Source: Synechocystis salina LEGE 00031 (lineage in GTDB: Bacteria > Cyanobacteriota > Cyanobacteriia > Cyanobacteriales > Microcystaceae). Taken from it: DNA of 64,000 nt. The translations under genes and the position numbers were made by a program. The stretch is taken from NCBI RefSeq assembly GCF_015207985.1, contig NZ_JADEVV010000010.1, positions 1-64,000 on the forward strand, written 5' to 3'. Within the stretch, counting starts at the first letter, position 1. Every line of letters begins with the position of its first letter. A model generated the notes under the pieces. It saw only the letters and a program-made list of their open reading frames with translations, was not told the origin of the DNA and ran no database searches. Positions 37,841 to 40,393 of this stretch are shown piece by piece.

Positions 37841-38626
37841 TTAACGTTTGGGACGAAATATATGACTGTGGTCGGGGTGATAAAGGCGCGATCGCCTGGG
37901 CAGATCAGTTTTTAAGGCTGGGCTGATTAAGTATAGGGTGGTGCGGATTAAATTTTCCCGTAAACTTAGGGCTGCCATTTCCCCCAGGGGAACTAACCAA
38001 ATTTTTTCATCGGGCCACCCCACTCGAAAGCAAACCGCTACGGGGGTATCAGCAGGGTAGTGCTCCAATAATTGCTTCTGAGCTTTTTCCACATGACGAG
38101 CAGCTAAGTATAGCCCCAAACTGGCTTGGTGGTAGGCCAAACTTGCTAACTCTTCCCGTTCTGGCACCGCCGAAGCCGCACCACTAATGCGGGTCAGCAC
38201 AATGGTTTGTACCAGGTCGGGCACGGTGAGTTCACAGTTTAAGATAGCCGCCGCCGCCTGGAATGCACTAATACCCGGCACACAGACAAAGGGAATATCC
38301 GCTTCCCCCAGGGCCTGCATTTGTTCGTGAATAGCACTGTAGAGGGTCAGATCACCGGAATGGAGTCGCACCACAATCTTCCCTTGGCGCACAGCTGTGA
38401 TCATTAACGGCACAATGGTTTCCAAGGTTTTACTCCCGGTGGCAATGCATTCTGTCTGGGGGCCTACCTCTGCCAACATTTGCTTGGGCACCAGGGAATC
38501 GGCATAGAGGACTAAGTCCGCCGCCTGGAGGAGTTTTTGTCCCTTAATGGTCAGTAGATCGGGATCACCGGGGCCTGCCCCAACAAAATAAACTGCCGGA
38601 GAAAAAGATTGTCTGGTTGCGGTCAT
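37841..38626 (-). CDS. cobM: CobM: precorrin-4 C11-methyltransferase
   Basis: 261 residues from ATG 38624-38626 (MTATRQSFSPAVYFVGAGPG). The SAM-dependent tetrapyrrole methylase fold shows VGAGPGDPDLLTIKGQKLL, VVRLHSGDLTLYSAIHEQMQ and CVPGISAFQAAAAILNCELT. It methylates C11 of precorrin-4 in cobalamin synthesis. The open frame continues 75 codons upstream, but those codons are the start of a different protein (DUF4926), joined only because of a frameshift. The DUF4926 stop overlaps the cobM start (ATGA), so the true start is this ATG. Equivalent to slr0239. Confidence 0.94.
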   Translation of the reverse strand: MTATRQSFSPAVYFVGAGPGDPDLLTIKGQKLLQAADLVLYADSLVPKQMLAEVGPQTECIATGSKTLETIVPLMITAVRQGKIVVRLHSGDLTLYSAIHEQMQALGEADIPFVCVPGISAFQAAAAILNCELTVPDLVQTIVLTRISGAASAVPEREELASLAYHQASLGLYLAARHVEKAQKQLLEHYPADTPVAVCFRVGWPDEKIWLVPLGEMAALSLRENLIRTTLYLISPALKTDLPRRSRLYHPDHSHIFRPKR

Positions 38627-38851
38627 AGATTTGCAGGTATGGGATTTTGGTGAAAAATCAGTAATTGATCTGCCGGTACGGTTTCCATGGCGTAGGGAAT
38701 ACCATGCTTCAACTTCAAACGTCTGGTCGTCAATTTCCATTACCACTGTTCCCACCTGGCCAGGTTGCAGGTAAATCGGCTCACCTGCTTCAAAATTTTT
38801 GGTTATCCGACCTTCAGTAATAATAACAACATCTAAGTCTTTAATTTTCAT
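38623..38851 (-). pseudogene. DUF4926 protein gene with frameshift
   Basis: ATG 38851 reads MKIKDLDVVIITEGRITKNF, then LQPGQVGTVVMEIDDQTFEV, the standard N-terminal two thirds of the small DUF4926 family. After FEVE the family pattern resumes in another frame: GIPYAMETVPADQLLIFHQN, ending at TGA 38623-38625, which overlaps the cobM start. The span is 229 bases, i.e. one base too many, around 38700-38712. The frameshift fuses the N-terminus artificially to CobM. The gene starts 9 bp after the DUF6883 remnant, its common genomic partner as I recall it. Confidence 0.72.
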
Positions 38852-38860
38852 AATTACCTG

Positions 38861-39196
38861 CTACTTTCTAACGGGATAACAACTAACTAAGCAAGGAAAA
38901 TTTTCCCCTTTACGAACAACCCATGCTGATAAAATCCAGGATTTCCCTTGTTCTGTTTTCAGAAAAACTTGAGAATATAGTATTTGCCAAAGTTATTTTC
39001 TTTATGAATTAATGCCTGTTCAGTTATTGTAGCTTTTTCAATAGCCTGGATAAGAATTTCAGCATTTTCTAGGGTAATCCCTAATTTTTTTTTGAAATAG
39101 ATAGGCTTTATCCTTGCCTCTGCCATAGTCAAAATTAAGGCAGTAGTTGTTAATTTTTTCCAGATAGTCTGCCTGGGCGGCATTGGGTAATTTCAT
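38861..39196 (-). pseudogene. DUF6883 protein gene with two compensating frameshifts
   Basis: Frame 1 from ATG 39194-39196 reads MKLPNAAQADYLEKINNYCL and GRGKDKAYLFQKK. After a run of nine A (39085-39093) the similarity moves to frame 2: LGITLENAEILIQAIEKATI and NNFGKYYILKF. After a run of five T (38963-38967 on this strand) it returns to frame 1: TEQGKSWILSAWVVRKGENF and PCLVSCYPVRK, stop 38861-38863. Joined, these make a full-length DUF6883 protein of about 111 residues. No single frame gives it. The total length, 336 bases, is a multiple of three, so one insertion and one deletion cancel. Decay, programmed slippage or sequencing error are all possible. Confidence 0.7.
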
Positions 39197-39199
39197 GGG

Positions 39200-40393
39200 C
39201 TATGCGATCAAACCCATTTCCTGTAGGTTTTTTCTGAGTCGCTCTGCCTCCGGGGATTGTCGTTGTTCATAAAGGGCGATCGCCTGTTGAAAAGCATCGA
39301 CACTTTCTTGGATTAGGCCAGCCTTAAAGCTGGTAACAGCTAGGTTTTGATAGGCTTCGGCATAGTCCGGTTGGAGGACAATGGCCTGTTGATAACCCTT
39401 AATAGCTTCGAGTAAGTTTCCTTGGGCTTTGTGAATCATGGCTAAGTTGAAAAAGGCGATCGCCTGGGATGGATCAATGTGAATTACTGCTTGATAAACC
39501 TTAATGGCTTCGCCCAATTCCCCCAAGTCTTGCAAAAAAGCACCGTAATTAATCAAAGCGCCTAATTTTAGAGGCAGTAAAATTTCTTCGTCGAGGGCTT
39601 TTTGATAATGTTTGCGGGCCAGCTCCCATTTTTGTTGGCGGCGGTAGGCATTGGCCAGATGGTAGTGCAATTCAAACCGCACAGGAATGGAAGCTGTGTT
39701 GCGCTTTAGACCCTGTTTGAGTAGTTTTACCCCCTCTTTTTCGTCCCCTAAGCTGAAATATAAAGCCCCTAACTTACTGCAGAGGTAAGGGTCCTGGGGA
39801 CTATCTGCCATGGCTTTTTCGAGCAAATGCTTGGCCCGCTGGGTTTTGCCCCGTTCCTTAAGCAAGGTGGGACTATAGCCTTGGTGGAGGATGGCTACCC
39901 CTGGTAAATCAATCACTTGCCAATGGGGTTCTCGTTCCAGTAAAGCCAAAACACTGTCATCAATGGTTTCGTGGTAGGGACGACTAAATTGCACCGCCGG
40001 ATGGCGACGGAATAGCCTGGATACCAACGAATAGGGGGACTGATTACTTTCCAGTTCGTGGCGCATTAGATTCACCACTAAAGCATTGTCCATGGCGATC
40101 GCCTTTTGGATGCCATCTTTAACCAGAATATTCAGCCTTTCGTCAGCATCGAGCACTAACACCCAATCCCCCGTGGTGGCCGCCAGGGCCTGATTGCGGG
40201 CCAGGGCAAAGTCATCTTCCCAGGGCACAGTGATCACCTTGGCCCCTGCTTGGGTGGCAATTTCCACTGTATTATCCGTGGACCCCGTGTCCGCTATGAC
40301 CATTTCATCCACTAGACCCGCCACACTGGCCAGACACTCCCCCAGGAAAGCGGCTTCATTTTGAACAATCATACAAAGGCTGAGGCGAGGCAT
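39200..40393 (-). CDS. Family 2 glycosyltransferase with TPR repeats
   Basis: 397 residues. The N-terminal GT-A domain (about 1-210) shows LSLCMIVQNEAAFLGECLAS, VIADTGSTDNTVEIA and VLVLDADERL, resembling the WaaE/SunS-like group. The C-terminal half consists of about five tetratricopeptide repeats (for example AKHLLEKAMADSPQDPYLCS and AIKVYQAVIHIDPSQAIAFF, then AIKGYQQAIVLQPDYAEAYQ). It probably transfers a sugar to a protein or envelope glycan, with the TPRs recruiting the acceptor. The stop lies 3 bp from the ATG of the DUF6883 remnant on the same strand. Confidence 0.88.
   Translation of the reverse strand: MPRLSLCMIVQNEAAFLGECLASVAGLVDEMVIADTGSTDNTVEIATQAGAKVITVPWEDDFALARNQALAATTGDWVLVLDADERLNILVKDGIQKAIAMDNALVVNLMRHELESNQSPYSLVSRLFRRHPAVQFSRPYHETIDDSVLALLEREPHWQVIDLPGVAILHQGYSPTLLKERGKTQRAKHLLEKAMADSPQDPYLCSKLGALYFSLGDEKEGVKLLKQGLKRNTASIPVRFELHYHLANAYRRQQKWELARKHYQKALDEEILLPLKLGALINYGAFLQDLGELGEAIKVYQAVIHIDPSQAIAFFNLAMIHKAQGNLLEAIKGYQQAIVLQPDYAEAYQNLAVTSFKAGLIQESVDAFQQAIALYEQRQSPEAERLRKNLQEMGLIA

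Follow-up and report, generated by a model that had tools for sequence, protein, structure and literature searches.

A decayed DUF6883–DUF4926 gene pair in front of cobM in Synechocystis salina LEGE 00031, probably the remnant of a ribonuclease toxin and its antidote

The stretch of DNA analysed here (the window; 64,000 nucleotides of contig NZ_JADEVV010000010.1 from Synechocystis salina LEGE 00031) carries, on the minus strand between a glycosyltransferase-2/TPR gene and cobM, the remnants of two small genes encoding the domains DUF6883 and DUF4926 (Table 1). A reading made from the sequence alone had claimed that DUF6883 is recoverable from shifted minus-strand frames that switch at an A9 and a T5 run, and the three pieces are indeed consecutive on the Pfam model: a profile scan of the genome places them in order at model positions 1–36, 13–83 and 82–109, with pieces 1 and 3 jointly reaching 32.6 bits. 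The A9 run is the sole A/T run of at least nine bases in the whole window, and, beside separated half-copies in the sister genome G003, the first two switches look as if the A run had gained one base and one base had been lost after the T run. DUF4926 follows 9 bp downstream with one frame switch and a stop codon overlapping the cobM ATG, all as had been proposed; this third switch proved to be no homopolymer event but a loss of 11 bp that are present in the syntenic G003 copy. The DUF4926 match at the N-terminus of the 336-aa frame (E 4.1e-4, 20.1 bits; 22.5 bits in the genome scan) lies below the cut-off of 29.1, and a Pfam search with the 36-aa C-terminal piece gave no match of its own; the window piece is filed as DUF4926 because of its orthology to the syntenic G003 copy, which scores 45.3 bits. 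The pair is AT-rich, with a GC fraction of 0.37 in the window and 0.35 in the genome G001 vs 0.49 for the window overall.

Single-frame calling renders this region, as the sequence-only reading had stated, as a 74-aa hypothetical protein and a 336-aa CobM, and both open reading frames were found. The longer one opens at an ATG at 38851 and runs into CobM, while the C-terminus of DUF4926 lies in another frame. Since cobM of G001 begins at the position equivalent to 38626 and the methylase domain lies on 37841–38626, the CobM start is most likely 38626 and not 38851, a correction that the locus brings to the annotation of cobM.

Table 1. Features between cobM and its upstream neighbour in the window (positions are those of the window)
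Feature	Position	Strand	Details
DUF6883 remnant (PF21814), whole	39196–38861	(-)	three pieces over two frames
DUF6883 remnant, piece 1	39059–39196	(-)	45-aa frame from ATG 39196; E 0.0013, 19.4 bits (below cut-off), model 1–36
DUF6883 remnant, piece 2	38959–39183	(-)	74-aa ORF, other frame; E 6.4e-7, 30 bits vs cut-off 27
DUF6883 remnant, piece 3	38861–38953	(-)	first frame again; stop 38863–38861; model 82–109 at 38870–38953
A9 run, first frame switch	39085–39093	(-)	T9 on the + strand; A8 in the separated N-half of G003
T5 run, second frame switch	38963–38967	(-)	one base fewer than in the separated C-half of G003
DUF4926 remnant (PF16277)	38623–38851	(-)	two pieces; frame lost at 38709/38708; TGA 38625–38623
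cobM	37841–38626	(-)	261 aa; TP_methylase E 3.2e-47
Upstream flank: glycosyltransferase-2/TPR protein	39200–40393	(-)	397 aa; flank common to G001 and G003

The recurrent pairing of the two domains, which had been put forward from the sequence, was borne out by counting neighbours across genomes. DUF4926 lies downstream of DUF6883 at 30 of 30 phylum loci, these being the best-scoring matches and no random draw, at 45 of 47 named genome loci, which derive from one query and are mostly its close relatives, at six of seven plasmid loci, and at the one phage locus; the domain-to-domain gap amounts to 12–59 nt. A pair of small neighbouring genes that run in the same direction and stay together is a feature of type II toxin–antitoxin systems, and this feature is found here. 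Among 386 cyanobacterial genomes, 88 carry both families, five DUF6883 only, ten DUF4926 only, and 283 neither. DUF4926 has more copies than DUF6883 in 53 genomes, as many in 37 and fewer in 13; the excess is in line with an antidote role but could also reflect other partners of DUF4926. At six of the 45 paired named loci DUF6883 is broken and the DUF4926 domain complete, the reverse occurring at none, which are small counts from loci found via DUF6883; five of the six broken copies have one in-frame stop between adjoining pieces. DUF6883 is incomplete at one of the 30 phylum loci. The partner is absent at two named loci (L139 and L141), in both of which DUF6883 is broken, and at the Streptomyces plasmid locus, where an SMI1/KNR4 gene lies nearby on the opposite strand. 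Upstream of three DUF4926 loci, no DUF6883 was detectable at L050 and L051, and a truncated one at L052. Outside the cyanobacteria, DUF6883 occurs in Chloroflexi, Acidobacteria, Rubrobacter, Streptomyces, and Subdoligranulum; of 14 named control genomes one, that of Caulobacter vibrioides, contains DUF6883 above the cut-off, and it also contains DUF4926.

An AF2 model of an uninterrupted DUF6883 relative, built with 36 sequences (pLDDT 97.1), comprises three helices followed by a four-stranded sheet. The BECR fold is defined, in the available text of its description, by N-terminal helices and a subsequent four-stranded meander (PMC3482391); the model has this layout, and its top PDB match is a BECR toxin. 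By both methods employed, Foldseek (E 8.5e-4) and VIA (Z 11.3, rmsd 2.4, 100 of 110 residues), this best match is CdiA-CT of Klebsiella pneumoniae 342 (Kp342; 6CP9), followed in VIA by CdiA-CT EC3006 (Z 8.9–9.1), BrnT (6.2), RelE (5.3), and HigB (4.3). Unrelated designed beta-sheet proteins are interspersed between the toxins in the Foldseek ranking, and the top matches among natural proteins are toxins. In 82 distinct in-frame DUF6883 sequences—99 before removal of duplicates, and including L058, which has a stop upstream of the domain—K15 and Y19 are invariant (82/82 each), K/R103 is found in 79 and T/S106 in 81. The active site of Kp342 CdiA-CT comprises K157, Y160, H170, R252, and T255, and both this toxin and EC3006 act on uncharged tRNA-Ile, according to the part of the source available (PMC9086364). 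In the VIA alignment, which places residues 9–110 on 151–259, K15 would fall on K157 and positions 103 and 106 on R252 and T255, assignments read from the alignment ends and not from a superposition; it is suggestive that on the predicted model the conserved residues of DUF6883 would correspond to site residues of the toxin. Sequence comparisons with the PDB returned no convincing relative for the DUF6883 profile (best E 0.17, to surface proteins) and, in a phmmer search with a plasmid copy, chance matches only (receptor phosphatases and others). Two DUF6883 proteins and one DUF4926 protein matched nothing in PADLOC or NCBIfam. The model of DUF4926 is a small SH3-like barrel (pLDDT 82) with no Foldseek match at E 0.001; in VIA it reaches Z values of up to 7.4, which reflect the common small barrel only and single out no distinctive match.

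Relatives on phages and plasmids place DUF6883 in toxin-like surroundings. On the phage contig L143 (IMGVR_UViG_3300010369_000027), DUF6883 forms the C-terminus (residues 369–476) of a 479-aa Phage_Mu_F protein; an SPP1-type portal gene lies directly before this gene, and a 65-aa open reading frame after it matches DUF4926 weakly, below the cut-off (E 0.001, 18.8 bits). Of two viral-contig scans for DUF6883, one returned this single relative and the other none, and one DUF6883 protein, searched against 50,697 phage records, had no match at E 1e-5. As a side observation, L143 represents a variant of the MuF toxins that goes without mention in the available text of their description (PMC5576092). 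On a Subdoligranulum plasmid (L091), the pair adjoins an Imm74 gene and lies behind a 631-aa protein without Pfam match, and on five further plasmids the DUF6883–DUF4926 pair is annotated as such. The Streptomyces plasmid copy resides at residues 286–387 of a 511-aa open reading frame (annotated as 495 aa), with no DUF4926, and L094 likewise holds DUF6883 inside a larger protein. At the end of contig G002:C80, a 345-aa open frame (L064, 3–1037) with a C-terminal DUF6883 looks like a larger toxin protein and is followed by a DUF4926 match of 32.1 bits (964–1335); this contig is small and could be a contaminant. The stop-to-stop DUF6883 frames at L043 and L046, as well as at L036 and L049, extend upstream by about 100 residues, and the extensions of L043 and L046 are alike by eye.

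Taking predicted fold, architecture of the phage and plasmid relatives, and neighbourhood together, DUF6883–DUF4926 is most likely a ribonuclease toxin with its antidote. The earlier description of a two-gene unit of unknown role stands as to the recurrent unit, whereas the role can be narrowed. An uninterrupted DUF6883 of about 110 aa would be a ribonuclease toxin with the BECR fold, possibly one that cuts tRNA as CdiA-CT Kp342 does, and the DUF4926 protein of about 80 aa encoded directly downstream would bind and block it; we infer the RNase activity, the tRNA target, and the neutralisation by DUF4926. The region in front of cobM is read, with good confidence, as a probable decayed toxin–antidote pair whose toxin was probably disarmed first; the AT-rich composition of the pair also speaks for this reading. 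Against it stand the loci that lack the partner, the five genomes with DUF6883 only and the 13 in which DUF6883 copies are in excess, the variable residue 25, the absence of PADLOC, NCBIfam and PDB sequence matches, and the unspecific structure matches of the DUF4926 barrel. Two families of uncharacterised function, found together in 88 of 386 cyanobacterial genomes, thereby gain a concrete and testable role. In one full-text collection, DUF6883, PF21814, and PF16277 were not found and DUF4926 was found in passing only, and the unit seems unstudied. A wider proposal, to which we give little more than even credence, is that the pair constitutes an undescribed family of stand-alone toxin–antitoxin systems, widespread among cyanobacteria, composed of a CdiA-CT-like tRNase and an SH3-like antidote and shared with phage MuF toxins and plasmids, whose subfamilies may be interchangeable in one slot and whose death in this slot would consist in disarming of the toxin and subsequent loss of the antidote.

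Likeness to known systems is partial in each case. The BECR tRNase CdiA-CT Kp342 of contact-dependent inhibition (PMC9086364) shares the predicted fold, and from the alignment ends K15, Y19, K/R103, and T/S106 could be placed on its residues K157, Y160, R252, and T255; it differs by an identity of 18% to DUF6883 and by the lack of a sequence match in the PDB, and its immunity protein, described in the available text as almost wholly beta-strands (PMC9086364), showed no likeness to DUF4926 in the tests made. The polymorphic MuF toxins that temperate phages carry, as far as the accessible description goes (PMC5576092), resemble the L143 layout with its portal gene upstream and DUF4926-like frame downstream, whereas the DUF6883 copy of the window stands alone, without a MuF domain. 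Toxin–antitoxin systems of the RelE, HigB, and BrnT type share the fold class at lower Z and the arrangement as two small co-directional genes; unlike these, the putative DUF6883 toxin gene comes first and the DUF4926 partner is modelled as an SH3-like barrel. A precedent for the antidote is offered by YxiD–YxxD of Bacillus subtilis, where, in the part of the report available, a small immunity protein of Sm-like beta-sheet type neutralises a BECR tRNase (PMC12700104). YxiD, however, belongs to another Pfam family (Ntox50), and YxxD is Sm-like, whereas DUF4926 is modelled as SH3-like.

The fate of the pair can be followed by comparison with four other genomes of the genus, in two of which, G001 and G003, the slot lies between the same flanks. 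The same pair occupies it in G003, where DUF6883 has an internal deletion of 211 bp and DUF4926 one internal stop codon (TAA), both of which are absent from the window. It follows from these different lesions that two lineages broke both genes independently, in agreement with the claim that the pair is inactivated here. Differences between the DUF4926 remnants of window and G003 spread evenly over codon positions (7/5/6 in 154 nt), whereas those in cobM fall mostly on third positions (10/1/56 in 786 nt), a significant contrast (Fisher p 7.5e-5, third vs first plus second). At the residue level, position 103, Lys or Arg in nearly all in-frame relatives, is Cys in both the window and G003; position 19 is Asn in G003 against the invariant Tyr; and position 25 is Tyr in the window against His in 72 of 82, so that His25 is not invariant. 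The Cys at position 103 common to both genomes suggests, as an order of loss read from sequence, that disarming of the toxin preceded the breaks in the frames. The toxin at this locus would probably have lost a catalytic residue first, by a change from Lys/Arg to Cys; neither gene would then have been kept, and each of the two lineages would have broken both on its own. The decay of the window copy is in itself ordinary. What the locus offers is a clean example of the way in which such a pair may be lost: two sister lineages have in common a change at a residue that is likely catalytic, after which each broke the pair independently.

Two other accounts of the frame switches have to be weighed against this decay. 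The sequence-only reading had allowed that slippage at homopolymer runs might keep the pair expressed and alive, an idea that could appeal to the singular A9 run and to the fact that the first two switches cancel in frame. It is rejected as extremely improbable, for the break in DUF4926 is an 11-bp loss, the sister copy has its own deletion and stop, and codon-position constraint is absent from the DUF4926 remnant; the pair at this locus is dead and not slippage-expressed. The same 11-bp loss and even codon-position spread, joined by the Cys at position 103 common to G003 and by the separate lesions of G003 at the same locus, also lead us to reject as highly improbable the notion that the frameshifts are assembly errors and that the living strain has an uninterrupted pair, even though the genome is a draft in 115 contigs and two of the three switches involve a single base in or beside a homopolymer.

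As to the role of the intact pair, it could instead be a stranded orphan cassette of a polymorphic toxin, secreted or phage-delivered, with DUF4926 as immunity protein rather than as part of a free-standing toxin–antitoxin system. The MuF fusion in L143, the plasmid pair next to an Imm74 gene and behind a 631-aa protein in L091, and the occurrence of DUF6883 as part of larger proteins, in L094 as well as at the end of contig G002:C80, all speak for such an origin. Cyanobacterial copies, however, are for the most part short genes that stand alone and lack a recognised trafficking domain, and the longer frames at L043 and L036, the upstream extensions of which contain no Pfam domain, have no known N-terminal domain; we regard this origin as possible but rather unlikely. 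Fold likeness alone shows no function, and the two families might form a non-toxic unit, for example in RNA processing or regulation, that merely has BECR and SH3-like folds. This seems improbable in view of the toxin-type architecture of the phage and plasmid relatives, the scattered and often broken copies, and the toxins that are the best structure matches among natural proteins.

The slot itself appears to have held more than one version of the pair. In G001, where the flanks are 84–89% identical to those of the window, it contains an uninterrupted pair of another subfamily (L014, about 2080–2900) without DNA-level alignment to the window pair. Its DUF6883 scores 67.6 bits and groups with a copy on G000:C14 (100/96, both on long branches); its DUF4926 reaches 29.3 bits vs the cut-off of 29.1 and covers model positions 1–36 of 57 only. 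Judged from sequence, the G001 content may have arisen by allele-like replacement or by a second insertion into the same site. The nearest full-length relatives of the unjoined window pieces are plasmid copies. In the tree—built from few columns, and with several long branches meeting in it, so that only the window clade (100/98) and the L062–G001 pair (100/96) were used—the window protein groups with the G003 split copy (100/98), within a clade of six rows (100/98) that further comprises three plasmid copies and a second G001 copy.

The window genome, G000, has four pairs in all: those on C50 and C14 are uninterrupted, the one on C5 has an early stop in DUF6883 and a complete DUF4926, and the window pair is broken in both genes. 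G003 has one more pair, apparently split over three places, with the N-half of DUF6883 at L019/L067 (2.91 Mb), the C-half and the start of DUF4926 at L018/L060 (2.46 Mb), and the rest of a DUF4926 at L080 (2.69 Mb). All three lie next to copies of one element that bears a transposase and that we take to be IS630; a simple transposon insertion is not adopted as the cause of the split, as more than one repeat is common to the places of the two DUF6883 halves. At a second locus shared by G001 and G003, presumably next to pyrG, G001 has an uninterrupted pair (L056) and G003 a broken DUF6883 with a complete DUF4926 (L065/L078). Finally, cobM follows the glycosyltransferase-2/TPR gene, with the pair between them, in G000, G001, and G003; in G002 and G004 (L144, L145) it follows another gene, which we assume to be lgt-like, a difference that may, to judge by the sequences, mark a rearrangement junction.
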